A stretch of 64,000 nucleotides of DNA, from positions 1,240,001-1,304,000 of the forward strand of contig BMTG01000001.1 in assembly GCA_014649555.1 (NCBI GenBank), read 5' to 3'. The notes under the pieces are model-generated. The model was not told where the DNA came from, ran no database searches, and saw nothing but the letters and a program-made list of their open reading frames with translations. A program made the translations under genes and the position numbers. This document shows positions 14,388 through 31,858 of the stretch, piece after piece; positions within the stretch are counted from its first letter, which is position 1, and the number at the start of each line of letters is the position of its first letter. The DNA comes from Streptomyces globisporus (GTDB lineage: Bacteria; Actinomycetota; Actinomycetes; Streptomycetales; Streptomycetaceae).

Positions 14388-14531
14388 TTCGGTCTCCTCG
14401 TACGGGAGGGAGCGGCCGTCGCAGGCGGGGCCGGGCGGGCGTGAGCGACGCTAACGGCGACATCTCCGCGGCTGTTGACCAATCGCGCATGCTTCCTGCC
14501 CGAGTTGCGCCCTTTCGGGGTCCGGCGGAAG

Positions 14532-14558
14532 CGGCCCATCAAAGGTTTCGATGGGCCG
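14532..14558. promoter_or_regulatory. Inverted repeat in the 319-bp gap before the AraC gene
   Basis: CGGCCCATC and GATGGGCCG form a perfect 9-bp inverted repeat with a 9-base spacer. It directly abuts the butyrolactone-receptor-like site at 14559. It may be a hairpin in the leader or a second operator. Apart from these elements the region 14388-14706 shows no gene. Confidence 0.5.
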
Positions 14559-14586
14559 TAGAAAACCAGCATGCGGGTATGTTCCC
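14559..14586. promoter_or_regulatory. Butyrolactone-receptor (ARE-like) operator candidate upstream of the AraC gene
   Basis: This 28-base site aligns without gaps to sites at 24412-24439 and 25258-25285. Shared positions are an A-rich left flank with AC at positions 7-8, GCATG at the centre, GGT(A/T)T to the right and a pyrimidine-rich end. The right half GGTATGTT agrees with the half-site known for autoregulatory elements of ArpA/ScbR-type receptors. It lies 120 bases before the chosen AraC start. Confidence 0.6.
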
Positions 14587-14706
14587 ATGCTCACGGATCC
14601 ACGGAAGGCACGGAAGAGAGCCACCGCCCAGGCGGCATCCGGTCGCAACGAAGCGGCCGACGCATACGCCCGGGCACCGCACTTCGGGCAGGTAACGGGG
14701 GAACTC

Positions 14707-15660
14707 ATGCTGCGCACCAGTGAACCGGACAGACAGCTGGCGGCAACCGGCCGCACGAGACGGGACGTACGGATGGACACCGCTCCGGGCGCCGTCGCCG
14801 AGCAGGGCGAGGAACTCGCCGGGACGACGGTCAGCCGGCGTTTCGGCGAGGCGTGGGTCTGCGTGGTGGAGGCGGGCCCGGGCGAGGTGAGCAGGCCGGG
14901 GCGGGCGGGACCGGCGGCCGAGACCTACCTGCGGGTGTTACGTCCGCTGGTGGGAGAGGTCCATGTGGAACAGGACGGCCGCCGCGCGGTCGCCTGCAGC
15001 TCCCAGCTCGTCTGCTACGACAGTTCCCGTCCGCACCGGATCTCCGTGCCGGAGGACCTCCGCATGGTGACGCTCGCGCTGCCCCACCGCTCGATCGGCC
15101 TCACGCCCAAGGAGTCGGACCTGCTCACCGCGAGGGTGTGGCACGGTTCCCAGGGGCTCGGCGCCCTGATGTCGGAGCTGCTCGCCGGGCTGGAGCGGTA
15201 CGGCGAGGAGGTCGACACCGCGATCGACCTGCTCGGCGGCAGCGTCGCGGGGCTGGCGGGCGCTCTGTTCGCCGAGCGCATCCGCAGTGCGGCGGCCGCG
15301 TCGGGCGTCGGCCGCCAGACCCTGATGGTGCATGTGCAGGCCTTCATCCGCGACAACATCGCGGTCCCGGAGCTGAGCCCGGTGACCGTGGCCCAGCAGC
15401 ACAATGTCTCTCTGCGCTATCTGCAGAAGATCTTCAACGAGCACAACACCAGCCCCGCGCGGTGGATCCGGGACGAGCGGCTCGCCCGCTGCCGTTGCGA
15501 ACTCGCCGATCCCGGCCTCGCCCATCTCTCCATCGCGGCGATCGGCGAGCGCTCGGGTTTCTACGGGGCCTCGCACTTCAGCCGGCTGTTCCGGGACCGC
15601 TACGGCGTCACACCCCGGGAGTACCGCAAGACCATGCGCCCGTCGGCTCTCACCGCCTGA
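14707..15660 (+). CDS. AraC-family transcriptional regulator with a TTA codon
   Basis: A 317-residue activator with an N-terminal AraC-binding-like domain and a C-terminal double HTH. The C-terminal part shows VTVAQQHNVSLRYLQKIFNEHN and IAAIGERSGFYGASHFSRLFRDRYGVTPREYR, the usual second HTH with the PREYR end. Start choice is not firm; ATG 14707 has a GGGGGAA stretch upstream, and in-frame ATGs exist at 14587 and 14773. Codon 78 (bases 14938-14940) is TTA, so translation should depend on the bldA tRNA. It precedes the methyltransferase and ligase genes on the same strand and is the likely pathway activator, itself controlled by the ARE-like site upstream. Confidence 0.88.
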   Translation: MLRTSEPDRQLAATGRTRRDVRMDTAPGAVAEQGEELAGTTVSRRFGEAWVCVVEAGPGEVSRPGRAGPAAETYLRVLRPLVGEVHVEQDGRRAVACSSQLVCYDSSRPHRISVPEDLRMVTLALPHRSIGLTPKESDLLTARVWHGSQGLGALMSELLAGLERYGEEVDTAIDLLGGSVAGLAGALFAERIRSAAAASGVGRQTLMVHVQAFIRDNIAVPELSPVTVAQQHNVSLRYLQKIFNEHNTSPARWIRDERLARCRCELADPGLAHLSIAAIGERSGFYGASHFSRLFRDRYGVTPREYRKTMRPSALTA

Positions 15661-15742
15661 CGCCCCGCGCCGCTCCTTCCCTCCCTCACGCCGTACCGGT
15701 CACGCGGTCCGGCGTGCCATCACCGCTGCGAAAGGTGAAACG

Positions 15743-16495
15743 TTGACCAGCTTCGAATTCCCCGGTGAGTACTACGAGATCATGCGTCGGGACTTCCGGA
15801 ACCTCGCCGCCGAGACGGAGTTCCTGGCCTCCTGCGCTCCCCCCGGCAGCCGGGTCCTCGACCTCGGCTCCGGAACCGGCACCAACCTGCGCCGACTGGG
15901 CGAACTCGGTTACTCCTGCGTGGGGGTGGACCAGAGCGCGAGCTTCGTGGAGTACGCCCGGCGGGCGGGCGGCGAGGGCGTGGAGTATGTGCACGGCCGG
16001 GCCGAGGATTTCGCGACGGACCGCCGTTTCGACCTGGTCTACAGCCTCTTCATGACCCTCAACCACCTGCCGCACGACAAGCTGCGGACCGTGCTGGAGA
16101 CGACGCGGTGCCACCTGGCGCCCGAGGGCAGGCTCGTCCTGGAATTCGGCCACCTGCTGAACTTCGTCGAGAGCTACCAGCAGCACACCGTCGCCCACCA
16201 CCGCGGCGACGACATCCTCATCACCCGGCTCGCCCGCCAGTCGGTCAACCCGCACGCGGCGACCTGGCGCAACGAGGAGACGCTGCTGGTGCGCGACGCC
16301 GACGGCCAGGTGTCCCTGTACGACAACTTCTTCGACCAGTCCGTCCTCACCGGGCCCGAGGTGCGCGGCCTGCTCGCCGAGGCGGGGTTCACCGTCACCG
16401 CCGAGTACGGCGGGTTCCGCAAGGAGCCCGCCCCCGGCCACGGCCGCGGGCCGCTGGTGATCATCGCCGCCCCCACCCCGAAGGAAGCGATATGA
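15743..16495 (+). CDS. Class I SAM-dependent methyltransferase
   Basis: A 250-residue methyltransferase. Motif I VLDLGSGTGTN is at about residues 36-46, the acidic loop GVDQSASFVEYAR follows, and FDLVYSLFMTLNHL carries motif II. The start is a TTG with AGGTGA just upstream; no nearby ATG or GTG is suitable. The stop overlaps the ATG of the next gene (ATGA), so methyltransferase and ligase are coupled. It probably O- or N-methylates the product or an intermediate of this locus; the substrate is not predictable. Confidence 0.88.
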   Translation: MTSFEFPGEYYEIMRRDFRNLAAETEFLASCAPPGSRVLDLGSGTGTNLRRLGELGYSCVGVDQSASFVEYARRAGGEGVEYVHGRAEDFATDRRFDLVYSLFMTLNHLPHDKLRTVLETTRCHLAPEGRLVLEFGHLLNFVESYQQHTVAHHRGDDILITRLARQSVNPHAATWRNEETLLVRDADGQVSLYDNFFDQSVLTGPEVRGLLAEAGFTVTAEYGGFRKEPAPGHGRGPLVIIAAPTPKEAI

Positions 16496-18165
16496 CGACC
16501 ACCGACGTCTCTTTCCTCGACGGCGGGCCCGCCGTCCCCACGGAGGTCCGCGACCTCGGCGAGACCCTGGTCCGGGCGGCGGGGACCACCGCATCGACCG
16601 GCATCTGCTTCGTGGGCGACGACGGCTCCGAGACGGTTCTGACCTACCCGGAACTGCTGGACGGTGCGGCCCGGCTCCTCGGCGGTCTGCGTGCGGCGGG
16701 CGTCGTGCCCGGCGAGACGGTCCTCCTCCAGGTCGCCGAACCCCCGGCACTGCTGACCGCCTTCTGGGCCTGTGTGCTGGGCGGCTTCGTCCCCATGCCG
16801 GTCAACGCCGGCGCCACCGCGGACCAGCGGGCCACCGCGCCCGAGCTGCTCCAGCGGGTGTGGCAGGGGTACGGGAGGCCGAAGGTCCTCACCGGCCCCG
16901 GCCAGGAGATCGCCCCGGCCGTCGCCGCCGACCCGCAGTGGCCGCAGGCCCTGCTCGGGGAAACGGACCGGCTCGGTTCCGGCGCACCCGAGAGCGCCTG
17001 GCACCGGGCGGCGCCGGACGATCCCGCCGTCCTGCTGCTCACCTCGGGCAGCACCGGTGTGCCCAAGGCCGTCACCCTCACCCACCGCAACGTGCTGAGC
17101 CGCACGTCCGCCACGGTGCGGCTGAACCGGCTGGGGGCAACGACCCGCAGCTTCAACTGGATGCCCCTCGACCATGTCGGCGGGCTGGTCATGTTCCACG
17201 TACGCGATGTCTACCTCGGCTGCTACCAGGTGCACGCCGGGATCGAGTGGGTGCTCGGGGACCCACTGCGCTGGCTGGAGGGCGTCGACCGGCACCGCGC
17301 CGACACCACCTGGGCCCCCAACTTCGCCTTCGGCCTGATCAACGACCTGGCGGACCGGCTGGCGGGGCGTCCGTGGGACCTGAGCTGTCTGCGGTACATC
17401 ATGAACGGCGGCGAGGCCGTCCGCAGCGGCGTGGTGCGGCGCTTCCTGGAGCTGCTGGCCCCCCTCGGGCTGCCCCGGGACGCGATGTGGCCGGGGTGGG
17501 GCATGTCCGAGACGTCCGCGGGGGTGGCCGACTGCGAGTTCTGGGCCGTGAACGCGGGTGACGACCGGTACGTGCCGGTGGGACGGCCGCAGCCGGGCAC
17601 ATCCCTGCGCGTGGTCGACGAGCGCAACCGGATCGTTCCCGTGGGCACGACGGGCCTGTTGCAGGTCAGCGGGGCGAGTGTGACCTCGGGGTACTACCGC
17701 AACCCCGGGCAGAACCGGCAGTCCTTCACGGACGGCTGGTTCCGGACCGGGGATCTCGCCTATGTGCGGGACGGCATTCTCACGGTGACCGGCCGTGCGG
17801 ACGACGTGATCCAGCTCGGCGGCGTCACCTATCACGGGCACGAGATCGAGGCCCGGGTGGAGGAGCTGGACGTGGTCGTGCCGTCCTACACCGTCGCCTG
17901 CCCGGTGACCGGGCCGGAGTCGGGCACCGAGGAACTCGCGGTCTTCTTCCACCCGCGCGCCGGGACGGATCCGGCCGAAGCCGCCCGGACGGTCCGTGAC
18001 CAACTGGCCCGGACGCTGGGCGTGACCGTGGCCCACACGGTGCCGGTGGGCAGGGAGGACGTGCCGAAGACGGGTATCGGCAAGCTCCGACGGGCCCAGC
18101 TGCGGGAGCAGTTCGAGGCTGCGGGCGCGGCCGGCTTCTCGGCGGAACCGGCTCCGGTGGGCTGA
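16492..18165 (+). CDS. Stand-alone adenylate-forming acyl ligase
   Basis: A 557-residue AMP-binding enzyme. The phosphate-binding loop LLTSGSTGVPKAVT is at about residues 182-195, GWGMSETSAG at about 341-350, GWFRTGDLAYVRDG in the linker, and the catalytic lysine in TGIGKLRRA near residue 531. The central FNWMPLDHVGGLVM segment resembles the acyl-ligase modules that start some polyketide or peptide assembly lines rather than housekeeping CoA ligases. No carrier protein or condensing enzyme is encoded nearby, so it may make an acyl-CoA, or act as an amide- or ester-forming ligase as NovL/SimL do. It is coupled to the methyltransferase. Confidence 0.85.
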   Translation: MTTTDVSFLDGGPAVPTEVRDLGETLVRAAGTTASTGICFVGDDGSETVLTYPELLDGAARLLGGLRAAGVVPGETVLLQVAEPPALLTAFWACVLGGFVPMPVNAGATADQRATAPELLQRVWQGYGRPKVLTGPGQEIAPAVAADPQWPQALLGETDRLGSGAPESAWHRAAPDDPAVLLLTSGSTGVPKAVTLTHRNVLSRTSATVRLNRLGATTRSFNWMPLDHVGGLVMFHVRDVYLGCYQVHAGIEWVLGDPLRWLEGVDRHRADTTWAPNFAFGLINDLADRLAGRPWDLSCLRYIMNGGEAVRSGVVRRFLELLAPLGLPRDAMWPGWGMSETSAGVADCEFWAVNAGDDRYVPVGRPQPGTSLRVVDERNRIVPVGTTGLLQVSGASVTSGYYRNPGQNRQSFTDGWFRTGDLAYVRDGILTVTGRADDVIQLGGVTYHGHEIEARVEELDVVVPSYTVACPVTGPESGTEELAVFFHPRAGTDPAEAARTVRDQLARTLGVTVAHTVPVGREDVPKTGIGKLRRAQLREQFEAAGAAGFSAEPAPVG

Positions 18166-18179
18166 TCCGGCGGCAGAGC

Positions 18180-18219
18180 CCGGGTGGGGCCCACGACTCA
18201 GGTCGCGGGCCCCACCCGG
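18180..18219 (+). terminator. Hairpin after the ligase gene
   Basis: CCGGGTGGGGCCC and its exact complement form a 13-bp stem with a 14-base loop, 15 bases after the ligase stop and before the convergent CGNR gene. It can serve both strands. Confidence 0.75.
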
Positions 18220-18279
18220 CGTTTCGGTGCGGGCACCCCGGGGCGCTCTCGACGTGTTCGTGTGGTGGCCCCCCGGCCG

Positions 18280-18843
18280 TCACGCGTCGGCGGTCCCCGC
18301 GCGGGTTTCGCGGTTGCGGACGTAGTGGCGGGCCACCTTGGCGCGGTTTCCGCACAGCGCCATGGAGCACCAGCGGCGGGTGCCGTTGCGGGACGTGTCG
18401 ACGAAGTGCCGGATGCAGTCCGGCTGGGCGCACCGGCGGATCCGGTCCGGGGCGGTGTCGAGGAGCCGCAGGTAGTCGCGGGCGGCCAGCCAGGCCGCGC
18501 CCCAGGAAGGATCGGCGAACTCGGCCTCCTCGCCCGGCCCTTCCGGGGTCAGGACCAGCCGGACCCGGCCGTGCTCCAGCACCTCGTCGAGGCTCTTGGC
18601 GGCGGCGGGCGAGCGGGGGTCGGCGAAGACCGCGGCGATCGCCGACCGGGTCCGTACCAGCGCCTCGGCGGCCGGGGCGTCGGCGGGGAAGCGGTCGCCC
18701 AGGCCGTGGCCGTCGAGCCAGGTCCGCAGGCCGGGCAGGGAGTCCAGCAGGTCGTGCCGGCGCCCGTCGGCCTTCCAGAGCGTGTTCAGCAGGTCGACGG
18801 CGACAGGTTCGCCGACGAACGGGCGGGGGTCGGTCAGGGCCAT
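18280..18843 (-). CDS. CGNR zinc-finger / ABATE domain putative regulator
   Basis: A 187-residue protein with the N-terminal ABATE domain (FVGEPVAVDLLNTLW near residue 10) and the C-terminal CGNR zinc finger. The finger reads CAQPDC, then WCSMALCGNRAKVARHY near residues 157-173, giving four cysteines for zinc and a following basic helix likely to bind DNA. The family is treated as stress or secondary-metabolism regulators. It faces the ligase gene and is divergent from the flavin monooxygenase; a palindrome 40 bases upstream is a candidate site for autoregulation. Confidence 0.87.
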   Translation of the reverse strand: MALTDPRPFVGEPVAVDLLNTLWKADGRRHDLLDSLPGLRTWLDGHGLGDRFPADAPAAEALVRTRSAIAAVFADPRSPAAAKSLDEVLEHGRVRLVLTPEGPGEEAEFADPSWGAAWLAARDYLRLLDTAPDRIRRCAQPDCIRHFVDTSRNGTRRWCSMALCGNRAKVARHYVRNRETRAGTADA

Positions 18844-18882
18844 GGCGCATCCCTCCGGGCCGTACCGATGTGCACTAACCCT

Positions 18883-18896
18883 TCAAGTGTACTTGA
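18883..18896. promoter_or_regulatory. Palindrome upstream of the CGNR gene
   Basis: TCAAGT and ACTTGA flank two bases in the divergent region between the CGNR gene and the monooxygenase. It is a candidate operator. The rest of the 298-base gap (18844-19141) is locally AT-richer, around 18900-18945, and includes a TTGACA at 18935-18940, but I could not pair it with a convincing -10 box. Confidence 0.45.
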
Positions 18897-19141: not shown

Positions 19142-20353
19142 ATGACCATCTCTCAGACCACGCCCACCGCCGCGGAGACCGAGCGGGAAACCCTGACCGC
19201 CGGGACGATCCTGGCCCGCGCCGAAGCCGCGGCACCGCGACTGCGCGAACTCTCCGAGGAGATCGAGCGCGGCCGGCGCCTCCCGGAGGAAGCGGTCCGA
19301 CTGGTGCGCGGAACCGGCGTGTTCCGGATCGGCATGCGCGAGGAATGGGGCGGTCCCGAGCTGACCTTCTCGGAGCAGACCCGGGTGATCGAGGCGCTCT
19401 CCTACGGTGACTCGGCGGCGGGCTGGTGCGCCATGATCGGCATGGACACCTGGATCTACGCCGGCTACCTCGACGAGACCGTGGTCAAGGAGATGCTGGC
19501 CGACGCCGACGCGATAACCGCCGGGCTCATCTTCCCGGTCGGCCGGGCGGACCGGGTCCCGGGCGGCTACCGGGTGACGGGCCGCTGGCCGTTCGGCAGC
19601 GGCATCACGCACGCCGACTGGGTCGTCGGCGGCTGCGTCGTCCACAGCGACGGCGTCCCGGAGCCGGGCGAGGACGGCGCCCCGGTGAACTGGCGGCTGA
19701 TGCTCGTACGCCGCGAGGAGGTCGAGACCGTCGACACCTGGCACACCCACGGCCTGGCCGGCAGCGGCAGCACGGACTACCGGGTGACGGACCACTTCGT
19801 CCCCGAGGACCGCACCTTCGACTTCACCACCCCCCGCGACTCCAGCCCGTTCTCCGCACCCGACGCCTTCCTCGGCAACGTGCCGGGCGTGCCGCTCGGC
19901 GTGGCCCGTGCCGCGCTCGACCACGTGCGGGAGCTCGCCGCGCACCGTGTGGAGCGGGCCACCGACACCCCTTGGTCCGACAGCTACCGCGTGCAGACCG
20001 CCATCGGGGAGGCCGAGATGCAGCTCTCCGCGGCCCGCTACGCCGTCTACGGATCGCTCGACGAGCTGTGGGCCCGGCTGCGGGACGGCGTCGAGGCGAC
20101 CCCCGACCAGCAGGTCGCCGCCGCTCTCGCCCGGCTCAACGCCTTCCGCACGGCCCGGTCGATCGTGCAGCGCCTCTCCGACCTCGTCGGCACGGCGTCC
20201 ATCTACCGGACCTCGCCGCTGGATCGCTGGCTGCGCGACCTGCACACCATGTGCCAGCACATCCTGGCGCAGGAGCAGATCGCCCAGTCCGCGGGCGCCC
20301 ACCTCATCGGCGGCACCCCCCAGGCGCCCTTCCCTCTCGGGCTCAAGGGCTGA
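19142..20353 (+). CDS. Acyl-CoA dehydrogenase-fold flavin-dependent monooxygenase (group D)
   Basis: A 403-residue protein of the acyl-CoA dehydrogenase fold but of the monooxygenase branch (HsaA/DszC-like), which uses reduced flavin and oxygen to hydroxylate aromatic or other substrates. Seen are an N-terminal helical segment with LSEEIERGRRLPEEAVR, the GYRVTGRWPFGSGITHADW strand region near residues 140-160, and a C-terminal half lacking the acyl-CoA dehydrogenase catalytic Glu motif. AGGAGG lies 6 bases before the ATG. It needs a flavin reductase, and one is encoded at 25828 in the same locus. The MFS exporter gene follows 92 bases later. Confidence 0.82.
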   Translation: MTISQTTPTAAETERETLTAGTILARAEAAAPRLRELSEEIERGRRLPEEAVRLVRGTGVFRIGMREEWGGPELTFSEQTRVIEALSYGDSAAGWCAMIGMDTWIYAGYLDETVVKEMLADADAITAGLIFPVGRADRVPGGYRVTGRWPFGSGITHADWVVGGCVVHSDGVPEPGEDGAPVNWRLMLVRREEVETVDTWHTHGLAGSGSTDYRVTDHFVPEDRTFDFTTPRDSSPFSAPDAFLGNVPGVPLGVARAALDHVRELAAHRVERATDTPWSDSYRVQTAIGEAEMQLSAARYAVYGSLDELWARLRDGVEATPDQQVAAALARLNAFRTARSIVQRLSDLVGTASIYRTSPLDRWLRDLHTMCQHILAQEQIAQSAGAHLIGGTPQAPFPLGLKG

Positions 20354-20445
20354 CCCCACCGCGACGAGCGCGGCCGGGGACGAAGGAACGACCAGCACCC
20401 CTTGCCGGACCAGCCGGCACCTCACTCAAGGAATCAGGAAAGCTG

Positions 20446-21927
20446 ATGGCAACTTCCGGCGAAGTACAGGTCGAGCCCGCGGGCGACAAGAAGGTCGGTG
20501 CCGACGGCACCCAGAAATCCTGGGGGCTCCGCGAGTGGGGCCTGCTGGTCAGCGTCTGTGCGGCGTTCTTCCTGGACGCCCTCGACAACATCATGGTCGG
20601 GATCGCCGTACCCCCGATCCAGGCCGATCTCGGGATGAGCACCGCGGCCGTGCAGTGGGTCGTGAGCTCCTACGTCCTCGGCTTCGGCGGCTTCCTGCTG
20701 CTGGGCGGCCGGATGGCGGACCTCATCGGCCGCCGCCGCGTGTTCCTCGTCGGCGTGGCGATCTTCGCCCTGGGGTCGCTGGTCGGCGGGGTGACGAACG
20801 AGGGCCTGGTGGTCATCGCCGCCCGGTTCGTCATGGGCATCGGCGCCGCGTTCACCGCACCGGCCGCGCTGTCGATCATCATCACCAACTTCCCCGCGGG
20901 CCCGCAGCGCAACCGGGCGGTCGGCATCTACACCGCCTGCGGCGCGGTCGGCTACTCCACCGGCGTCATCGTCGGCGGAGCGCTGACCGAGATCAACTGG
21001 CGCTGGACCTTCCTGCTGCCGGTCGTGGTGGCGATCGCCGCCCTGGTCGGCGGGCTGACCCTGGTACCGCGCGACAACGTCGCCGACCGCGCACGGGGCT
21101 CGTTCGACGTGGCGGGCGCCGTCACCGTGACCTCCGGCATGCTGCTCCTCGTCTACGCGATCGTCGAGGCGCCCAACGCCGGCTGGCTGTCCGGGCGCAC
21201 CCTGCTGGTGTTCGCGGCGGCGGTGGCGCTCCTGGTGGCCTTCACCGTCATCGAGTCCCGTACCGCCCAGCCGCTGCTGCGCCTCGGACTGCTGCGCAAC
21301 CGCTCCCTGGTCGGGGCCAGCCTGGTGGCCGCAGCGATCCTCGGCACCTACATGAGCTTCCAGTTCATCGGCGGTCTGTACCTCCAGACGCTGCGCGGCT
21401 GGTCCCCGATGGAGATGGCCCTGGCCTTCCTCCCGATCGGGCTGCTCATCGCGACGATCGCGCCCAGGTCCGGCAAGCTCATCTCCAGGTTCGGCGTGCA
21501 GTGGATGATCGTCGCGGGGTTCGTCGCGTACACCGCTTCCTACCTGCTCTTCCTCCGTATCGACGAGAGCTCCGGCTACCTCTGGGTGATCCTGCCGAGC
21601 ATCCTCCTCATCGGCATCGCCTTCCCGTTCTCCTTCCCGGCCGCCAACGTCCAGGCGACCGCGAACGTGGCCGACGAGGAACAGGGACTGGCCGCCGGCG
21701 TCCTGCAGACCGGCTACCAGGTCGGCGCCGCCGTGGTGCTCGCCGTGGTGACCGCCACCATGGCCGTCGACCACACCGGGGGCGGCGAAGGGGCCAAGAC
21801 GCTCGACGGCTACCACAGCGGCCTCTGGGTCCTCGTGGCCATTTCGGCCGTCACCGTCGTCCTCACCGCGATCGCCGCGGTCCGGGCCTCCGCGCGGCGC
21901 AAGGCGTCGGCGGACGTGAGCGTCTAG
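20446..21927 (+). CDS. MFS transporter of the DHA2 (14 TM) drug exporter type
   Basis: A 493-residue membrane protein. The first TM contains FFLDALDNIMVGIAVPPI, followed by loop motif GGRMADLIGRRRVF near residues 90-103, and motif C-like GYSTGVIVGGALTE in TM5. About fourteen hydrophobic segments are seen, typical of EmrB/QacA proton-driven exporters. An AGGAAAG site precedes the ATG. It lies between the monooxygenase and P450 genes and probably exports the product of the locus or gives self-resistance. A strong terminator follows. Confidence 0.9.
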   Translation: MATSGEVQVEPAGDKKVGADGTQKSWGLREWGLLVSVCAAFFLDALDNIMVGIAVPPIQADLGMSTAAVQWVVSSYVLGFGGFLLLGGRMADLIGRRRVFLVGVAIFALGSLVGGVTNEGLVVIAARFVMGIGAAFTAPAALSIIITNFPAGPQRNRAVGIYTACGAVGYSTGVIVGGALTEINWRWTFLLPVVVAIAALVGGLTLVPRDNVADRARGSFDVAGAVTVTSGMLLLVYAIVEAPNAGWLSGRTLLVFAAAVALLVAFTVIESRTAQPLLRLGLLRNRSLVGASLVAAAILGTYMSFQFIGGLYLQTLRGWSPMEMALAFLPIGLLIATIAPRSGKLISRFGVQWMIVAGFVAYTASYLLFLRIDESSGYLWVILPSILLIGIAFPFSFPAANVQATANVADEEQGLAAGVLQTGYQVGAAVVLAVVTATMAVDHTGGGEGAKTLDGYHSGLWVLVAISAVTVVLTAIAAVRASARRKASADVSV

Positions 21928-24411: not shown

Positions 24412-24439
24412 AAAGATACGTGCATGGCGGTATGGTCTT
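24412..24439. promoter_or_regulatory. ARE-like operator between AfsA-like and ScbR-like genes
   Basis: The 28-base site has the left half AAAGATAC, central GCATG and right half CGGTATGG; the last matches the consensus half-site for ArpA-type receptors closely. It lies 59 bases upstream of the AfsA-like start and 66 bases upstream of the receptor start, where it could repress both. Confidence 0.65.
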
Positions 24440-24504: not shown

Positions 24505-25194
24505 ATGGCACAGCAGGAACGGGCGAGGAAGACCAAGGACGCGATCCTCGAAGCGGCGGGAGCGGTCTTCGCCGAACGGGGCTACGACGGGGCCACCGTG
24601 TCCGACGTCTACTCCCGGGCCGGGCTGACCAAAGGGGCCTTCTACTTCCACTTCTCCTCGAAGAAGGACCTGGCGGAGGAGGTCCTCTCCATACAGGTCG
24701 ACCGCCAGGGGTACCCGATCCTGCCGCGCCAGGTGAAGCTCCAGGAGCTGGTCGACGCGGGGTTCGTCTTCGCCCACCGGCTCATGCGCGACAGCATGCT
24801 CCAGGGCAGCGTCAACCTCTCCCTGGAGTCCGGCGCCCACCAACTGGACCGCAAAAGGCCGTTCGTGGCCTGGATCGACCACAACCAGCGGGCGCTGACC
24901 GAGGCGAACGACCACGGCGAGCTGTACTCGCACGTCGATACGGCGGAGGTCGCCGAGCTGATGGTCTCGTCCTTCTCGGGCGCCCAGATCCTTTCGCACA
25001 TCCTCACCGGCCGCCAGGATCTGACCACCCGCGTCGCCGCGCTCCTCGCGCATCTGCTGCCCACGATCGCCGTACCCGCGGTGCTGGCCAGGCTGGACAT
25101 CGCCGCGGACCGCGGGGAACGGGTCCTGGCCGAGGCCGGCGTCGGCACCACGGCCCTGCGCCCCGCACCCCCGGGGCTCACGGACACGCTCTGA
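24505..25194 (+). CDS. ScbR-like gamma-butyrolactone receptor (TetR family)
   Basis: A 229-residue TetR-family protein. The HTH region has ILEAAGAVFAERGYDGATVSDVYSRAG and LTKGAFYFHFSSKKDLAEEV at residues 14-60, with the KGAFYFHF form typical of the ScbR/ArpA/BarA group. A conserved tryptophan in RPFVAWIDHNQRAL near residue 120 fits the ligand pocket of butyrolactone receptors. The start is the ATG after GAAAGGA. It probably represses its own gene, the AfsA-like gene and the sites at 14559 and 25258 until a butyrolactone accumulates. A pseudo-receptor role is also possible. Confidence 0.9.
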   Translation: MAQQERARKTKDAILEAAGAVFAERGYDGATVSDVYSRAGLTKGAFYFHFSSKKDLAEEVLSIQVDRQGYPILPRQVKLQELVDAGFVFAHRLMRDSMLQGSVNLSLESGAHQLDRKRPFVAWIDHNQRALTEANDHGELYSHVDTAEVAELMVSSFSGAQILSHILTGRQDLTTRVAALLAHLLPTIAVPAVLARLDIAADRGERVLAEAGVGTTALRPAPPGLTDTL

Positions 25195-25257: not shown

Positions 25258-25285
25258 CAAAAAACGTGCATGCTGGTTTTCTTGG
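25258..25285. promoter_or_regulatory. ARE-like operator upstream of the small LysR-type gene
   Basis: This 28-base site shares the ACGTGCATG core with the 24412 site and has AAAAC and GTTTT as 5-bp inverted arms around ten bases. It lies 31 bases before the start of the short LysR-type gene. Confidence 0.55.
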
Positions 25286-25316: not shown

Positions 25317-25580
25317 GTGAACCTGCACCAGTTACGTACGTTCTGCGAGGTCGCGGGCGTGCACAGCTTCACCAAAGCAGCCAGGAACCTGCACTACGCG
25401 CAGTCCACCGTGACATCGCAGATCCAGAACCTGGAGGACTTCCTGGGGGCACCCCTCTTCGAGCGCGGGAGCCGGGGCATCGTCCTGACCGACGCGGGTG
25501 TCAGGCTGCTGCCCTACGCGAACGCGATGCTCAGTCTCGCCGAGTCGGCACACCGGCACGTCGCCCGCTCCCCCGTATAA
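25317..25580 (+). CDS. Short LysR-type HTH protein (87 residues, no effector domain)
   Basis: Only the N-terminal winged HTH of a LysR regulator is present: VNLHQLRTFCEVAGVHSFTK, then YAQSTVTSQIQNLEDFLGAPLFERGSRGIVLTDAG, up to about residue 70. The usual linker helix begins (LLPYANAMLSLAESAHRHV) and the protein then stops, whereas the family usually has about 300 residues. The GTG start has GGGAG nine bases upstream. Codon 6 (25332-25334) is TTA, so it should be bldA-dependent. An ARE-like site precedes it. The TAA stop lies inside an 18-bp direct repeat whose second copy has CAA at that place. It could be an intact mini-regulator, a dominant-negative partner, or a relic. Confidence 0.75.
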   Translation: MNLHQLRTFCEVAGVHSFTKAARNLHYAQSTVTSQIQNLEDFLGAPLFERGSRGIVLTDAGVRLLPYANAMLSLAESAHRHVARSPV

Positions 25581-25675: not shown

Positions 25676-25705
25676 TGCGCGTTCCCACCGGCCGCGCGCG
25701 CAGAC

Positions 25706-25827: not shown

Positions 25828-26364
25828 ATGGGCGAGGTATCCGCCACCAGCCGGCCAGTCATCACCATTCAGGACGAACTCCGTTCGGTCATGCGCAATT
25901 TCGCCACCGGAGTCTGCGTGGTGAGCACTTTCACCGACGCACCGTCCGGACGTATACACAACGCTCTCACGGTCAATTCCCTCACCTCTCTCTCGCTGAG
26001 CCCACCCCTCATTTCCATCAGCATTCGACTGGAATCCACATTCCTCGACGAACTGATGGAGTCGGGAGTGTGGGCCGTATCCGTCCTGGACGGCGGCGGT
26101 GAGGACCTCGCCAGGATCTTCGCCCGCCCCGAGGAGGAGCGCAGGAGGTCGCTGCGGAGCCTGCCCACCGAGCCGGGGGCCGCGACCGGGGCGGCCGTTC
26201 TGGACGGTGCGGCCTGGCTGGAATGCCGATATCACCAGCACGTCGTCACCGGCGACCATGTCCTGGTCATCGGTGAGGTCGTGGGCCTGGGCGCCGACAG
26301 CACCCGCTCCCCCCTGGTATTCCTGCACGGCGGATTTCACCGCTTCGAACGCGAACAGGTCTGA
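25828..26364 (+). CDS. Flavin reductase (HpaC/ActVB-like)
   Basis: A 178-residue flavin reductase-like split-barrel protein. The pattern MRNFATGVCVVST near residue 20, NALTVNSLTSLSLSPPLISISI near 45-66 for the flavin pyrophosphate and isoalloxazine site, and the C-terminal HHV-GDHVLVIGEVVGL strand are typical. It would supply reduced FMN or FAD to an oxygenase; the group D monooxygenase at 19142 is the obvious partner, though the two genes are 5.5 kb apart. A GGAGAGGA site precedes the ATG. It is the first gene of a six-gene plus-strand run that ends with the aromatic supply cassette. Confidence 0.88.
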   Translation: MGEVSATSRPVITIQDELRSVMRNFATGVCVVSTFTDAPSGRIHNALTVNSLTSLSLSPPLISISIRLESTFLDELMESGVWAVSVLDGGGEDLARIFARPEEERRRSLRSLPTEPGAATGAAVLDGAAWLECRYHQHVVTGDHVLVIGEVVGLGADSTRSPLVFLHGGFHRFEREQV

Positions 26365-26409
26365 CAGAGCCCGATTCCCCGCCACCCCGTATCGATAGGT
26401 GACTGACAT

Positions 26410-27945
26410 ATGTCCGCAATCTCGATAGGTGTTGTCGGAGGCGGCGCATCCGCTGTCTGCCTCATCGACGCCCTGGTCATGGCCAAAGGCGGCCCAGGCA
26501 GCCTGACGGTATTCGAGCCATCGCCGAACCTCTGGCGGGGACGCGCCTACCAGGTCGACAGCGAAATCATCAAGGTCAACGCAACCCCCGACGACATGTC
26601 CGTACGGGCAGGCGATCCGCACCACTTCATCCGCTGGCTGGGCGCCCGTGAACGCATGCTCGGCGAGAGCTACGGCCTGGACCCCTTCTCCGGGGCGCGG
26701 TTCGCTCCGCGCACGGTCTACGGCGAGTACCTGGAACAGACGGCCTACGCCGGTCTGGCCGAACTCCGACGACAGGGCTGGCGCGTCGACCTCGTCGGCG
26801 ACTCCGTCACCTCGGCGCGGCGTACCGAGGACCAGGTCGTGGTGAGCACCGGGCGGGGCATGACGAGCTCCTTCGACTACGTCGTCCTCTGTGTCGGCGG
26901 TGACGGGCCCAAGGACGTGTACGGCCTGGCGGGCTCCCCCGGCTTCATCGCGGACCCGTATCCCGTCTCGCAGAATCTGCGCACGATCGGCGCGGCGGAG
27001 CGGGTCGCGGTGATCGGCAGTGGTCTCACCGCCGTCGACATCGTCCTCTCCCTGGCGGCCCAGGGGCATCGGGGACCGATCAGCCTGGTGTCCCGGCGCG
27101 GGGTGCTCCCCGGTGTCCGGCAGCGGGAGGCCCACTTCGAGCTGCGCCACCTGACACAGGAACGCATGCGCGCCCTGGCCCGGAGCAGGCGGGAGATCTC
27201 CGTCCAGGAGTTCACGGCGATCGTCCACCGGGAACTGCACGACGCCGGGGTGGACCTGGCGGCTCTCCACACCGAGCTGGCCTCCCTCGACGGGGAGTCG
27301 CCGGCCGACAGACTGAGGCGGCAGTTCGCCGCCGTCAACGCCTCCGACCTGGGCCTTCGCATTCTCCAGCGGGCGGTCCCGGAGATCGGGCCCGACGTCT
27401 GGCCGGTGCTCGGGGAACAGGACCGGGCCGAAGTACTGCGCCTGCACTACCGGACCATCATGAGTCTGTGCTGCCCGATGCCGCCGAGCAGTGCCGCGGT
27501 GCTGCTCGGCCTGATCGACGAAGGCCGTCTGGACATCCGGTCCGGTCTCGACTCCGCCTCCCCGGGAAGCGGTGGGGGCCTCACCCTCAGCCTGCTGGAC
27601 GGAACGGTCCTGCGGACGGACCGCGTGATCAACGCGGTCAGCGCCTCCGAGGGCCGCATACCGCAGGGCGCCGCACCGCTCGTGGACACCTTGGTCGGCG
27701 GCCGTGCCGCAAGCCTCCACCCGCACGGCGGGCTGCATGTCCTGCGCGCCACCAGCCAGTTGACGACGGACGGCACCTCGGACCCGCGGCTCTACGGACT
27801 GGGCACCATCGCGGCGGGCTCCCTCTTCTTCACCTTCGGTGTCCAGTCGCTGGTCGACCGGGGGGTGGACATCGTGGACGCCATCCTGGAGCACGCCGCC
27901 GCGCGGACGGCGAGCCACACCGCCGAGTCGCTGCTGCCGGCCTGA
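26410..27945 (+). CDS. FAD/NAD(P)-binding oxidoreductase (NAD_binding_9-like)
   Basis: A 511-residue protein. An N-terminal Rossmann motif VVGGGASAVCLIDAL (residues 8-22) binds FAD, a PDDMSVRAGDPHHFIRWL segment near residue 60 is typical of the NAD_binding_9 family, and a second Rossmann motif AVIGSGLTAVDIVLSL lies near residue 200. The C-terminal LYGLGTIAAGSLFFTFGVQSLVDR may close the FAD site. Relatives include uncharacterised hydroxylases and N-monooxygenase-like proteins of siderophore and secondary metabolism. The exact reaction is not predictable; an oxidation of a phenolic or amine intermediate is a reasonable guess. Confidence 0.75.
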   Translation: MSAISIGVVGGGASAVCLIDALVMAKGGPGSLTVFEPSPNLWRGRAYQVDSEIIKVNATPDDMSVRAGDPHHFIRWLGARERMLGESYGLDPFSGARFAPRTVYGEYLEQTAYAGLAELRRQGWRVDLVGDSVTSARRTEDQVVVSTGRGMTSSFDYVVLCVGGDGPKDVYGLAGSPGFIADPYPVSQNLRTIGAAERVAVIGSGLTAVDIVLSLAAQGHRGPISLVSRRGVLPGVRQREAHFELRHLTQERMRALARSRREISVQEFTAIVHRELHDAGVDLAALHTELASLDGESPADRLRRQFAAVNASDLGLRILQRAVPEIGPDVWPVLGEQDRAEVLRLHYRTIMSLCCPMPPSSAAVLLGLIDEGRLDIRSGLDSASPGSGGGLTLSLLDGTVLRTDRVINAVSASEGRIPQGAAPLVDTLVGGRAASLHPHGGLHVLRATSQLTTDGTSDPRLYGLGTIAAGSLFFTFGVQSLVDRGVDIVDAILEHAAARTASHTAESLLPA

Positions 27946-28039
27946 GCCCGGCCCGACCGCGCCGCCCGCGCGCCTGGCCGCACCTCCTGCTTCCCGCACC
28001 TCCCTCCCTTTTCTCCCCTTCTCCGAGAACGGAGTCGCC

Positions 28040-28885
28040 ATGACCACGGTTTCGCCCCTCACCCACCCGCACGGGACCACTTCCGCAGCGACAGCTCCCG
28101 CCGGCTATCTCGCCGACACGGCGACCGGCCTCCCGATCCCGGGAGAGCCCGACTTCGCCACCCCCGAGGAGGCCCGGCGCCACCGCAAGCAGCGCCTGGC
28201 CGCCGCTCTGCGGCTGTTCGGCAAGTACGGCTTCGGCGAGGGCATATCGGGCCACATCTCGGTGCGCGACCCGGAGTACCCGGACCAGTTCTGGGTGAAC
28301 CCGTTCGGCGTCTCGTTCAAGCACGTCCGCGTGGCCGACCTCATCTGCGTCGACTCCCGGGGCCGCGTCGTCCACGGCAAGCACCGGGTGAATCCGAGCG
28401 CCTTCGTGATCCACTCCCAGATCCACGAACTGCACCCGGGCGCCACGGCGGCGGCCCACGGCCACACGGCGCACTCCCGCGCCCTGGGCGCGATCGGCCG
28501 TCTCCTCGACCCCATCGATCAGGAATCGGCCGCCTTCTACGGTCGTCAGACGCTGTACGAGGCGTACGAGGGACCGTCCGTCTCCCTGGAGCAGGGCCGC
28601 GACATCGCCGAGAAGCTGGGCGACAACCGTGCCATCCTCCTGCGCCACCACGGGCTGATCACGGTGGGCGGCTCGCTGGACGAGGCGGTGCACTGGTTCT
28701 TCACCTACGACAGCTGCGCCCAGGTCCAGTTGCTGGCCCGCGCCGCCGGCACCCCGGAGACGTTCACCCACGAGCAGGCGACCGCCGCCGGGGAGGGGTT
28801 CGGGGACGAGCAGCTGGGCTGGTTCAGCTTCCAGCTGCTCTGGGACGAGATCGTCGCCGAGCAGCCCGACCTGCTGGAGGAGTAG
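28040..28885 (+). CDS. Class II aldolase/adducin-fold protein (possible CloR/NovR-like oxygenase)
   Basis: A 281-residue protein of the class II aldolase fold. Seen are LRLFGKYGFGEGISGHISVRD near residues 56-75, FWVNPFGVSFKHV, and the metal-binding histidines in HGHTAHSR near 140 and LLRHHGLITVGG near 202. In aminocoumarin clusters the homologous fold in NovR/CloR works as a non-heme iron oxygenase that shortens a 4-hydroxyphenylpyruvate derivative to a benzoate. Here the gene directly precedes DAHP synthase, chorismate mutase and prephenate dehydrogenase, which together make 4-hydroxyphenylpyruvate, so the same reaction type is a plausible hypothesis. An ordinary aldolase or epimerase role is not excluded. 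Confidence 0.75.
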   Translation: MTTVSPLTHPHGTTSAATAPAGYLADTATGLPIPGEPDFATPEEARRHRKQRLAAALRLFGKYGFGEGISGHISVRDPEYPDQFWVNPFGVSFKHVRVADLICVDSRGRVVHGKHRVNPSAFVIHSQIHELHPGATAAAHGHTAHSRALGAIGRLLDPIDQESAAFYGRQTLYEAYEGPSVSLEQGRDIAEKLGDNRAILLRHHGLITVGGSLDEAVHWFFTYDSCAQVQLLARAAGTPETFTHEQATAAGEGFGDEQLGWFSFQLLWDEIVAEQPDLLEE

Positions 28886-28948
28886 CGGACGAGGTGCGGC
28901 AGGCACCACCACCCGGTTCGACAGCGACTCCCGACAGAGGAAGGGCAC

Positions 28949-30313
28949 ATGACTCACCGACCGGAATTTCCCACCTCCCCCGCCACCTGGCGGGGGCTGC
29001 CCGCCGCGCAGCAGCCACCGTGGCCGGACCAGCAGGCGCTGAACCGGGTGCTGGCGGACCTCGCCGGCTGTCCTCCGCTCGTCTTCGCGGGCGAGTGCGA
29101 CCGGTTACGCACCCAGCTCGGTGCCGTGGCCCGCGGTGAGGCGTTCGTCGTGCAGGGCGGCGACTGCGCCGAGACCTTCGCCGGGGTGACGGCCGACCGG
29201 ATACGCGACAAGGTGAAGACGCTGCTCCAGATGGCGGCCGTCCTCACGTACGCGACCTCCGTTCCGGTGGTCAAGGTGGGGCGCATCGCGGGGCAGTACT
29301 CCAAACCCCGCTCCAGCCCCACCGAACGGCGCGGAGACGTCGAGCTGCCCGTCTACCGGGGCGACGCGGTCAACGGCCTGGAGTTCACCGCCGAGGCCCG
29401 CACCCCCGACCCGGACCGGCTGCGGCACATGTACCAGGCGTCCGCCGCCACGCTGAACCTCGTCCGCGCCTTCACCAAGGGCGGTTACGCCGGGCTGCAC
29501 CAGGTGCACACCTGGAACCAGGACTTCGTCTCCGCGTCACCGGCCGGTGAGCGTTACGAGCGGCTGGCCGGCGAGATCGACCGGGCCATGGCCTTCCTGC
29601 GGGCCTGCGGCGTACGGCCGGACGAGTTCGACGATGTGGACTTCTTCACCAGCCACGAGGCCCTGATCCTCGACTACGAGGAGGCGCTCACCCGGCGCGA
29701 CTCGCTCAGCGGCCATGACTACGACGTCTCCGGCCATCTGATCTGGATCGGCGAGCGTACCCGCCGACTCGACGGAGCGCACGTGGAGTTCGCCTCCACC
29801 GTGCGCAACCCGGTCGCGGTCAAACTGGGGCCCACCGCCACGGCCGACGAGGCCCTGGACCTGATCGAGAAGCTCGATCCCCACCGTGAGCCGGGCCGTC
29901 TCTCCTTCATCACGCGTATGGGCGCGGACCGGGTGCGCGACCTGCTGCCACCGCTGGTGGAGAAGGTCACCGCCTCGGGCGCCCGGGTCGCCTGGATCTG
30001 CGACCCGATGCACGGCAACACCTTCACCGCGCCCGGCGGCCTCAAGACCCGCAGGTTCGACGACATCCTGGCCGAGGTCCGGGGGTTCTTCGACGTGCAT
30101 CACGCGCTGGGCACCCATCCCGGGGGCATTCACATCGAGTTGACCGGCGAGGACGTCACCGAGTGCGTGGGCGGCGGCGCGGCTGTCGACGTGGACGACC
30201 TGGTCCATCGCTACGAGTCGGCGTGCGACCCGCGGCTGAACCGGCACCAGGCGCTGGACCTCGCCTTCGAGACGGCGGAGCTGCTCCGCGACCGCGGCAA
30301 CGGGGCGGGGTGA
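28949..30313 (+). CDS. Class II 3-deoxy-7-phosphoheptulonate (DAHP) synthase
   Basis: A 454-residue plant/actinobacterial-type DAHP synthase, joining phosphoenolpyruvate and erythrose 4-phosphate as the first step of the shikimate pathway. Typical segments are QGGDCAETFAG near residue 70, KVGRIAGQYSKPRSSP near 110, VYRGDAVNG near 135, and C-terminal WICDPMHGNT and GGIHIELTGEDVTEC. Codon 53 (29105-29107) is TTA, very unusual for a housekeeping shikimate gene and a sign that this is a pathway-dedicated copy under bldA control. The chorismate mutase gene follows after four bases. Confidence 0.93.
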   Translation: MTHRPEFPTSPATWRGLPAAQQPPWPDQQALNRVLADLAGCPPLVFAGECDRLRTQLGAVARGEAFVVQGGDCAETFAGVTADRIRDKVKTLLQMAAVLTYATSVPVVKVGRIAGQYSKPRSSPTERRGDVELPVYRGDAVNGLEFTAEARTPDPDRLRHMYQASAATLNLVRAFTKGGYAGLHQVHTWNQDFVSASPAGERYERLAGEIDRAMAFLRACGVRPDEFDDVDFFTSHEALILDYEEALTRRDSLSGHDYDVSGHLIWIGERTRRLDGAHVEFASTVRNPVAVKLGPTATADEALDLIEKLDPHREPGRLSFITRMGADRVRDLLPPLVEKVTASGARVAWICDPMHGNTFTAPGGLKTRRFDDILAEVRGFFDVHHALGTHPGGIHIELTGEDVTECVGGGAAVDVDDLVHRYESACDPRLNRHQALDLAFETAELLRDRGNGAG

Positions 30314-30317
30314 CGGC

Positions 30318-30698
30318 ATGGCGGTACGCGGTCTGCGCGGTGCGGTCCAGCTGCGCGAGGACTCCGAGGACGCCGTCGTCGGCGGCACCAAACGGCTCCT
30401 GAAGGACATGCTCGACGCCAACGGGGTACGGCACGACGACCTCGTCAGCGTCCTCTTCACGGCGACCCCGGATCTGCGCTCGGCGTTCCCGGCGGCCGCC
30501 GCCCGCGAGGCGGGCATGGCGGACACCCCGCTCATGTGCGCCCAGGAACTGGACGTCCCCGGTGCGCTGCCGCGCGTCGTCCGCATCCTGGCGCACGCCG
30601 AGACGGAACTGCCCAAGCGCGACATCCACCATGTGTATCTCGACGGCGCGGCCGTTCTGCGCCCCGACCAGGCAGCACGCCCCGGAGGCAGCGAATGA
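30318..30698 (+). CDS. AroH-type monofunctional chorismate mutase
   Basis: A 126-residue chorismate mutase of the trimeric AroH class, converting chorismate to prephenate. The active-site residues known in the Bacillus subtilis enzyme are matched with an offset of at most one: Arg7 (RGLRGAVQL), Cys74 and Glu77 (MCAQELDVPG), Arg89 (VVRIL) and Tyr107 (HHVYLDGA). It overlaps the prephenate dehydrogenase ATG (ATGA) and follows the DAHP synthase by 4 bases, so the three form one transcription and translation unit. Confidence 0.93.
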   Translation: MAVRGLRGAVQLREDSEDAVVGGTKRLLKDMLDANGVRHDDLVSVLFTATPDLRSAFPAAAAREAGMADTPLMCAQELDVPGALPRVVRILAHAETELPKRDIHHVYLDGAAVLRPDQAARPGGSE

Positions 30699-31858
30699 TC
30701 AGCACGGCAGCGGTCGTGGGAACCGGACTCATCGGCACCTCGGTGGCCCTGGCCCTCGCGGCGAAGGGGGTGCGGGTGCATCTGCTCGACCTGGACGAGT
30801 CGGCGGCGCGGACGGCGGCCTCACTGGGCGCCGGAACGGTGGGCCGCCCCGCCGCCCCCGTGGACATCGCCCTGCTGGCGGTACCGCCGGGGAGTGTGGG
30901 CGAGGTGCTGGCCGTTCAGCAGTCGAAGGGGCTCGCGCACTCCTACATGGACGTGGCCAGCGTCAAGTCGGGACCGGTGGGGGACGTGGCCGCGCTGGGC
31001 GATCCGGCCTCCTACATCGGCGGCCACCCGATGGCGGGACGGGAACTCTCCGGACCGCTCGCCGCGACGGCGGCCCTGTTCGAGGGGCGGTCCTGGGTCC
31101 TCACCCCGACCCCGGACACGACGACCCAGACCCTGAACCGGGCCCTGGAGGTGATCGCCCTGTGCGGGGCGGTCCCCGTGGTCATGGACGGCGAGGCCCA
31201 CGACCGGGCCGTGGCCCTCGTCTCGCACACCCCGCATGTCGTCGCGGCGCTGATGGCCGCGCGGCTCCAGCACATGCCCGACGACGCGACCCGGCTGGCC
31301 GGGCAGGGGCTGCGGGACGTGATCCGTATCGCCGGCGGCGACCCCAACCTGTGGGGCGACATCCTCGACGCCAACGCCGCGGCGGTGGCCGATGTGCTGG
31401 CGGAGCTTGCGGACGACCTGAGCGTGGCGGTGACGGCCCTGCGCGGGCTGGCCACCGACAGCACGGACGTCCGCGCCGAGGGGATGATGCACGTCGCCGA
31501 TCTGCTGAGCCGGGGCTGTGAGGGGCGCAAGCGGATACCGACGAAGCACGGCGCACCGCTCCGGGGCGGGGCGCTGGTCCGGGTCCTCATCGGGGACCAG
31601 CCGGGCGAGCTGGCCTCCCTGCTGGCCACCGTCGCGGACCTGGGCATCAACGTCGAGGAGGTGACGATCGACCATTCGCCCGAGGACCGCAGCGGCCTGG
31701 TCGAGCTGCTGGTCGACACCGGTTCGACGGTCCGCATGGAGCAGCGGCTCATCGAGTACGGCTGGCGGGTCCAGCAGGGGTCGGCCCCGGCCCCGCAGGG
31801 GCGCCCCGCACCCGCGGGACGGCTCCTGGCCGAAGCGGCTCCGGCCGCCACCGCCTGA
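30695..31858 (+). CDS. tyrA: Prephenate dehydrogenase with C-terminal ACT domain
   Basis: A 387-residue enzyme oxidising and decarboxylating prephenate to 4-hydroxyphenylpyruvate with NAD(P). The Rossmann motif VVGTGLIGTSVALAL is at residues 7-21, followed by VASVKSGPVGD and GGHPMAGRELSG near residue 110 with the catalytic His. The second helical domain has LVSHTPHVVAALM near 180. An ACT domain at about 295-365 (LIGDQPGELASLLATVADLGINVEEV) suggests feedback control by an aromatic amino acid is retained. As the last gene of the cassette it sets the product as 4-hydroxyphenylpyruvate, hence tyrosine or a 4-hydroxyphenyl building block. Confidence 0.93.
   Translation: MISTAAVVGTGLIGTSVALALAAKGVRVHLLDLDESAARTAASLGAGTVGRPAAPVDIALLAVPPGSVGEVLAVQQSKGLAHSYMDVASVKSGPVGDVAALGDPASYIGGHPMAGRELSGPLAATAALFEGRSWVLTPTPDTTTQTLNRALEVIALCGAVPVVMDGEAHDRAVALVSHTPHVVAALMAARLQHMPDDATRLAGQGLRDVIRIAGGDPNLWGDILDANAAAVADVLAELADDLSVAVTALRGLATDSTDVRAEGMMHVADLLSRGCEGRKRIPTKHGAPLRGGALVRVLIGDQPGELASLLATVADLGINVEEVTIDHSPEDRSGLVELLVDTGSTVRMEQRLIEYGWRVQQGSAPAPQGRPAPAGRLLAEAAPAATA

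Follow-up and report, generated by a model that had tools for sequence, protein, structure and literature searches.

The window analysed here comprises 64,000 nucleotides of Streptomyces globisporus (C1:1240001-1304000 of the 8.25-Mb genome G000), and the system in question is a gene cluster in it that combines a free-standing adenylate-forming ligase, here called LIG, with a flavin adenine dinucleotide (FAD)/NADPH flavoprotein, a NovR/CloR-like protein, a shikimate supply cassette and a butyrolactone control system. Genes were called by codon-position GC content and assigned to families with Pfam and NCBIfam, and the starts of the genes for the flavin reductase (25828), the FAD protein (26410), 3-deoxy-D-arabino-heptulosonate 7-phosphate (DAHP) synthase (28949), prephenate dehydrogenase (30695) and a PNPOx-like protein (14387) were set by homologue comparison. 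An initial annotation had placed a biosynthetic locus at 14500..31858. The locus is real, and every enzyme listed for it is present with Pfam or NCBIfam support, but the left edge was wrong, as the gene for a PNPOx-like tandem split-barrel protein (13464..14387, -, PF01243) had been missed; because this gene belongs to the locus, the latter is best drawn as 13464-31858. The cluster family is coherent and regulated, and is more than an ordinary list of tailoring genes.

LIG (16492..18165, +, PF00501, 557 aa) is of the keto-acid/arylpropanoid A-domain type; its closest relatives in the PDB are StsA (6ulx, 398 bits) and McyG (4r0m, 364 bits), and the best benzoate-CoA ligase reaches 87 bits. It is not part of a non-ribosomal peptide synthetase (NRPS) module with a carrier domain, being a 557-aa protein in a window with no PP-binding carrier match at E 0.001 or better (the nearest on the contig lies at C1:659115), which bears out the absence of a carrier protein claimed initially. 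Together with 32 relatives, whose free-standing state was judged from gene-call neighbourhoods and not one by one, LIG forms a fully supported clade of 33 free-standing ligases (100/100), separate from NRPS-embedded domains; L092, L095, L102 and L104 group with the latter and were left out of the 33. Fused ligase open frames occur in S. gossypii (with a DsbA-like domain) and G304 (with flavin reductase), and the three extended ligases that were looked at all lack a recognisable carrier domain. In the part of PMC11253843 drawn on here, the keto-acid domain of StsA is described as having a hydrophobic residue in place of the amino-group-binding Asp and Met in place of a conserved Pro, while W272 of McyG helps to hold the substrate ring. 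The Asp235 position is occupied in LIG by V229 and is hydrophobic in all 33 ligases (V in 24, I in 8, A in 1), and both M338, at the Pro-to-Met position, and W274 are invariant in the 33. Since Met and Trp at these positions are also present in 16/16 NRPS-embedded relatives, they mark a wider group. As McyG itself is given there as an L-Phe domain, an aromatic three-carbon acid is better supported for LIG than a keto group as such, and a phenylpyruvate-type acid would fit better than 4-hydroxybenzoate. The ligase of the initial annotation is present, but judged from residues and clade it looks suited to a keto-, hydroxy- or arylpropanoid acid rather than to benzoate.

The NovR/CloR-like protein (28040..28885, +, PF00596) is a candidate non-haem iron oxygenase with a class II aldolase fold. 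Aldolase function as a first choice was dropped because NovR (9ryg) is its nearest relative in the PDB (192 bits with the single sequence, 229 bits by profile), though the second match, 4xxf (179 bits), deposited as a fuculose-1-phosphate aldolase, is almost tied by profile (228 bits). Its residues H140, H142 and H204 align with NovR histidines, are invariant in 12 aligned sequences and, going by the aldolase fold, presumably form the metal site. The protein, initially described just as a class II aldolase-fold protein, is thus better regarded as a candidate oxidative decarboxylase of the NovR type, NovR being the best PDB match; it is named NovR-like, and not NovR, because no prenyltransferase partner was found among the Pfam-annotated genes of the span. 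According to a portion of PMC13111500, CloR and NovR have a three-His iron site and convert prenylated 4-hydroxyphenylpyruvate to hydroxybenzoate by two O2-dependent decarboxylations; as the annotated genes of the span include no prenyltransferase, the substrate of the NovR-like protein would be 4-hydroxyphenylpyruvate itself or a derivative.

The adjacent FAD/NADPH flavoprotein (26410..27945, +) had been listed initially as a FAD/NAD(P) protein; its presence stands, and fold comparison refines its role towards an FzmM-type N-hydroxylase fold. The best match of its predicted fold is the aspartate N-hydroxylase FzmM (8cp2), over nearly the whole chain and at 19% identity; the flavoprotein is about 90 residues shorter than FzmM and contains two dinucleotide-binding motifs. 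Ranked by Z alone, YpdA, a thiol-disulphide reductase, comes near (25.0), though over 314 residues only. Searches of the PDB with phmmer and with profiles returned weak matches to pyridine-nucleotide oxidoreductases and the like, and FzmM was not among the profile matches at E 1 or better. Lyase_1 proteins are the nitrite-releasing nitrosuccinate lyase partners in aspartate-nitrosuccinate pathways; three such genes are found in the genome and none in the window. At three further loci (L171, L172 and L173), a FAD-HpaB set is accompanied by genes resembling catechol 2,3-dioxygenase, hydratase/decarboxylase, HpaE, aminotransferase and adenosylhomocysteinase (families scanned on L171 only), which might represent aromatic degradation or a ring-cleaving biosynthetic cluster.

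Relatives of LIG were found at 72 loci of all kinds in GTDB genomes and in 21 plasmid records, and a match at E 1e-100 or better, NRPS-embedded domains counted, occurs in 49 of 392 Streptomyces genomes, a sample of the genus. A gene-by-gene comparison covered 30 loci, namely the window and 29 relatives chosen for an apparently free-standing ligase, on fetched stretches of ~10 to 60 kb, some of them cut by a contig or stretch end, and absence here refers to the fetched DNA. The family was found in Streptomyces, Kitasatospora, Microbispora, Micromonospora, Glycomyces, Rhodococcus and other genera, as well as in Saccharothrix and Pseudonocardiales assembled from metagenomes. The NovR-like gene and the FAD gene are each present in 28/30 loci; two of the four gaps lie at the end of a fetched stretch and the other two are those of NRRL B-24484. 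Among the 392 Streptomyces genomes, the NovR-like gene (E 1e-100 or better) occurs in 19 and the FAD gene (E 1e-60 or better) in 50; all 19 NovR-positive genomes also carry the FAD gene, which exceeds chance, and 14 of them carry LIG against 2.4 expected; the Fisher values behind this treat genomes as independent, which they are not. Of the 49 genomes with a LIG match, 13 chosen for an apparently free-standing ligase were tested, and all 13 have a NovR-like gene at 73-100% identity. The cluster of G012 is split into two halves 5.65 Mb apart (LIG at 7.95 Mb, NovR-like gene at 2.30 Mb), and in Streptomyces sp. NBC_00335 and NBC_01244 the core is carried by linear plasmids. With the few term sets tried, neither a description of the family nor a published cluster of the same gene order was found in the open-licence literature.

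Several further features were observed among the relatives. G108 has two copies of the ligase gene in opposite orientations, one near each end of an 11.3-Mb contig (C1:70007 and C1:11256159), an arrangement that fits the terminal inverted repeats expected of a linear chromosome. The loci of S. albus NRRL B-1811 (L086:7144-13907) and Rhodococcus plasmid pLW3 (L151:11899-17939) combine the core with pairs of pyruvate phosphate dikinase/phosphoenolpyruvate-utilising genes and three genes of the group D oxygenase type, and the latter also contains an Rv2466c-like protein (mycothiol-dependent nitroreductase family). An extra glyceraldehyde-3-phosphate dehydrogenase (GAPDH) gene, often beside the AraC and PNPOx genes, is present in 11/30 loci (e.g. 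L150:31753-32760) and might act as a resistant copy of the target or help to supply sugar phosphates; since no GAPDH copy matched in the window, self-resistance was not taken up as an explanation. In addition, the FAD-NovR pair lies beside NRPS and P450 genes in G096 (L166, L177 and L178; open frames of 4961, 4101 and 3672 aa) and G150 (L167); by eye, from its motifs, one A domain looks like a phenylglycine type.

The right end of the cluster is formed by a shikimate cassette of a second class II DAHP synthase (28949..30313, +; TIGR01358, 681 bits, cut-off 614.7), an AroH-type chorismate mutase (30318..30698, +, PF07736) and a second prephenate dehydrogenase (30695..31858, +; PF02153, PF20463), the last with a weak C-terminal ACT match (PF01842, 22.4 bits, under the cut-off of 27). 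The genome encodes two class II DAHP synthases and, at E 0.001, none of the PF00793 type, while prephenate dehydrogenase gives two strong matches plus one just over and one under the cut-off; because of these further copies, the cassette is additional to the primary set, and the dedicated supply to 4-hydroxyphenylpyruvate proposed initially holds. For prephenate dehydrogenase, the cluster protein and the C8 copy share 54% identity. The DAHP synthase of the cluster shares 72% with the primary genomic copy; its closest cassette homologues are those of G360 and G185 (79%), others are at 71-75%, and a few fall to 44-57%. Identity alone thus does not separate the cluster DAHP synthase from the primary copy. 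In the plasmid loci of NBC_00335 and NBC_01244, the supply set is extended by aroA, aroB, aroC and transketolase, and an aminotransferase and a GAPDH gene are also present. The family, gathered through the ligase, spans many actinobacteria, and all three cassette genes were found in 14/30 loci.

The cluster also encodes a two-component phenol hydroxylase, as had been proposed, consisting of a group D flavin monooxygenase (oxygenase component with an acyl-CoA-dehydrogenase fold; 19142..20353, +, PF08028) and a flavin reductase (25828..26364, +; PF01613, matched with the trimmed start). The oxygenase is HsaA/HpaH-like in NCBIfam, below the cut-offs, and its nearest PDB entries are Rv3094c, HsaA and C2-HpaH. 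A group D oxygenase is present in 16/30 loci and HpaB in 10, with both in 1 and neither in 5 (a 32% oxygenase match in NRRL B-24484 was left out of these counts). A 4-hydroxyphenyl substrate is supported because one two-component phenol hydroxylase replaces another among loci, sister loci having HpaB and flavin reductase instead. The S-adenosylmethionine-dependent methyltransferase (15743..16495, +, PF13649) lies immediately upstream of LIG in many relatives, and in others elsewhere in the locus or not at all. A predicted exporter of the major facilitator superfamily (20446..21927, +, PF07690) follows the oxygenase gene. A homologue of the PNPOx-like gene occurs in 21/30 loci, often beside the AraC, methyltransferase and ligase genes; the model of its 280-aa version has a predicted local distance difference test score of 89, and about half of the chain resembles PNPOx/HupZ folds in Foldseek (best E 4e-6).

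Regulation of the cluster appears to involve a butyrolactone system, of which both the synthase ScbA/AfsA (23391..24242, -; NF041195, 270 bits, cut-off 200) and the receptor ScbR (24505..25194, +; NF041196, 215.5 bits, cut-off 150) exceed the NCBIfam cut-offs, so that butyrolactone control, like the methyltransferase and exporter, is supported as initially annotated. The "five or six regulators" of that annotation are reduced to four DNA-binding regulators in 14500..31858, which, besides ScbR, are an AraC-family regulator (14773..15660, +; PF12833, PF14525), a CGNR zinc-finger regulator (18280..18843, -; PF11706, PF07336) and an 87-aa LysR-like protein that contains the helix-turn-helix only (25317..25580, +, PF00126). 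A LysR protein without a sensing domain is unusual; the homologues in relatives are also short (92-157 aa), and a protein cut down to the helix-turn-helix (~90 aa) is kept at the same place in several of them (L071:14212-14502, L141:5935-6213).

Three intergenic regions contain palindromes with a common pattern, ARAWACNNGCATGNNGGTWTKNT, that resemble autoregulatory elements (ARE-like sites); they lie between the PNPOx-like and AraC genes (14560..14583), between ScbA and ScbR (24413..24436), and upstream of the LysR-like, flavin reductase, FAD and NovR-like genes (25259..25282). The pattern, which was drawn from these three sites, occurred at a mean of 0.00 in 100 shuffles of the window. When the relatives were scanned with up to 3 mismatches, 27 matches were found in 12/12 relatives with a clear ScbA or ScbR match (G185 being placed in this group by an ScbA match near a contig end, its ScbR not seen), all of them within 362 bases of a matched cluster-gene start. 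In the 21 sets without a clear ScbA or ScbR match there were 2 matches, one of them in Kitasatospora MAP5-34 ahead of the AraC gene, and reversed sequence (1.05 Mb) contained none. An operator upstream of AraC is found in relatives as in the window, and the two halves of the split G012 cluster form one predicted regulon, because both carry the operator. The half-sites and spacing, compared by eye, are like those of the ArpA consensus DNA in the excerpt of PMC4150764 used here, while the SfbR consensus, as given in part of PMC7480387, is too degenerate to serve as a test (47 matches at 3 mismatches in reversed sequence). ScbR would be a candidate to bind all three ARE-like sites.

The P450 (22003..23295, +, PF00067) was correctly annotated at first, but as it follows ScbR it may act on the signal and not on the product. 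At 60% identity or more it occurs in 8/30 loci, all with ScbR, and it was found neither in the 17 loci without an ScbR match nor in NRRL B-24484 (weak ScbR match). Moreover, three Microbispora loci keep the other genes and do not have the P450. Because of this co-occurrence with ScbR and its absence from the Microbispora loci, a role as product-tailoring enzyme was rejected, and the P450 is more likely part of signal synthesis. Against a signal role, SID8352 has the P450 and ScbR with no ScbA, and G046, G108 and S. gossypii have ScbR without the P450 in the fetched DNA.

Taken together, we lean towards the explanation that the cluster makes a small compound derived from tyrosine or 4-hydroxyphenylpyruvate, under butyrolactone control and without an assembly line. 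Carbon would be driven to 4-hydroxyphenylpyruvate by the three extra cassette enzymes, and the side chain of this keto acid, or of the corresponding amino acid, might be oxygenated and oxidatively decarboxylated by the FAD enzyme and the NovR-like iron oxygenase working together. The group D monooxygenase with the flavin reductase would add a hydroxyl ortho to the phenol, which the methyltransferase would then cap. LIG would adenylate an acid resembling phenylpyruvate or phenyllactate, which would then pass directly to coenzyme A or to a small partner molecule, and the product would be exported by the MFS pump. ScbR may keep the promoters shut via the three ARE-like sites until the ScbA-made signal, most likely finished by the P450, accumulates. 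More tentatively, and with considerable doubt, the FAD and NovR-like enzymes could form a new two-enzyme module, in which one enzyme oxygenates an aromatic amino or keto acid at the nitrogen (or alpha carbon) and the other removes the carboxyl group in an iron- and O2-dependent oxidation; a ligase that works without a carrier, and that descends from or is sister to the keto-acid domains of NRPSs, could then link the resulting N-oxy or chain-shortened arene to a keto acid.

Several observations weigh against this explanation. The relatives were gathered via LIG, so its presence in them is by construction, and several are close kin (NBC and ISL strains) and not independent. No cassette gene was found in the fetched DNA of 7/30 loci, namely SID8352, M. 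mirobrigensis, both Glycomyces, A3M-1-3, S. albus NRRL B-1811 and Rhodococcus pLW3. NRRL B-24484 carries LIG, AraC, the methyltransferase and the cassette but neither the FAD nor the NovR-like gene in its 21.6 kb, and with its weak ScbA and ScbR matches (31% and 33%) it has no operator, which makes the operator count 12/13 if it is grouped with the ScbA/ScbR relatives. LIG was not matched in 5 of the 19 NovR-positive Streptomyces; in G096 and G150 of the genomes without a LIG match, the FAD-NovR pair adjoins large NRPS genes, and the pair is therefore not tied to LIG. The FAD enzyme may be catabolic in kind, because homologues also sit beside HpaB and meta-cleavage genes without a NovR-like gene. 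Furthermore, the keto-acid reading of LIG is not exclusive, since McyG, a near relative, is listed as an L-Phe domain in the part of PMC11253843 cited above. Finally, no amide- or ester-forming partner enzyme was identified.

An alternative that builds on the initial annotation is a product route through benzoate, in which the NovR-like enzyme takes 4-hydroxyphenylpyruvate to 4-hydroxybenzoate and LIG activates the latter, yielding a hydroxylated and methylated benzoate ester or amide. The NovR-type sequence agrees with this, as NovR/CloR chemistry ends at benzoate, and the phenol hydroxylase and methyltransferase would be available to decorate the ring; LIG, however, groups with keto-acid/arylpropanoid A domains and not with aryl-acid ligases, as its bit scores show, and we regard this route as improbable, if worth keeping in view. 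We give a similarly low probability to N-oxygenation, in which the FAD enzyme would be an N-hydroxylase producing an N-hydroxy amino acid or a nitrogen oxide, leading to an oxime, nitroso, hydrazine or diazo compound, and so to an N-O or N-N bond in the product; LIG would presumably take the role of the ATP-dependent ligases of diazo biosynthesis. The predicted fold is what suggests it; the identity of 19% to FzmM only, the absence of FzmM from the profile matches, the closeness of YpdA by Z, the lack of a Lyase_1 gene in the window and the occurrence of FAD homologues in apparently catabolic clusters all speak against it.

HpaB and group D oxygenases typically belong to the degradation of 4-hydroxyphenylacetate, and the cluster could thus be a catabolic or detoxifying operon for aromatic acids. 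In G347, the FAD and HpaB genes are found with catechol 2,3-dioxygenase, hydratase and decarboxylase-like genes, and the same families occur in G389 and G089. No ring-cleavage gene was seen among the Pfam-annotated genes of the span, however, and the biosynthetic shikimate genes, the butyrolactone system, the exporter and the plasmid-borne copies indicate biosynthesis, which makes this alternative very improbable.

To the right of the cluster, a FAD/Fe-S oxidase gene is followed by an ATPase/Roadblock/DUF742 set, and these neighbours do not recur beside the compared relatives. At 35192-40594 the window contains a conservon-like set (ATPase, Roadblock, DUF742 and, by eye, a GTPase-like gene) and then two P450-like genes, which are apparently unrelated to the cluster.

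Should the more tentative reading of a two-enzyme module hold, the products would constitute a new class of small metabolites from actinobacteria, and NRPS clusters would have taken up the module as well. If they act jointly, the FAD and NovR-like enzymes would amount to a new enzymatic unit. As there is no carrier or condensation core in the window, cluster finders based on core enzymes could overlook the family on chromosomes and linear plasmids. With LIG, the FAD and NovR-like proteins, a predicted regulon and an inducible system at hand, both product and signal can be sought directly.

Among the closest known systems, bagremycin and ferroverdin are small aromatic products joined by a free-standing ligase, and their pathways include 3-amino-4-hydroxybenzoic acid (3,4-AHBA) synthesis genes. 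The Pfam-annotated genes of the span include none of this kind, and identity with the bagremycin or aminocoumarin clusters was rejected because the defining genes were not seen. With the NovR/CloR branch of novobiocin and clorobiocin, the cluster shares the best solved relative of its NovR-like protein, the aligned histidines and a substrate class that fits the 4-hydroxyphenylpyruvate supply, but it differs in having no prenyltransferase among the annotated genes, a different ligase and a FAD partner gene. The FAD protein shares with FzmM the predicted fold over nearly the full chain and the two dinucleotide-binding motifs, whereas it is divergent in sequence, shorter, paired with a NovR-like gene and without Lyase_1 in the window. 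The A domains of McyG and StsA, the closest solved relatives of LIG, are alike in the replaced Asp235, the Pro-to-Met change and, as in McyG, the Trp of the aromatic pocket, while LIG is free-standing, has no carrier domain in the window and belongs to a fully supported clade of its own. As in other ScbA/ScbR systems, both proteins score above the NCBIfam cut-offs and the ARE-like sites have ArpA-like half-sites and spacing; in contrast to those known, the predicted regulon here includes this cluster.

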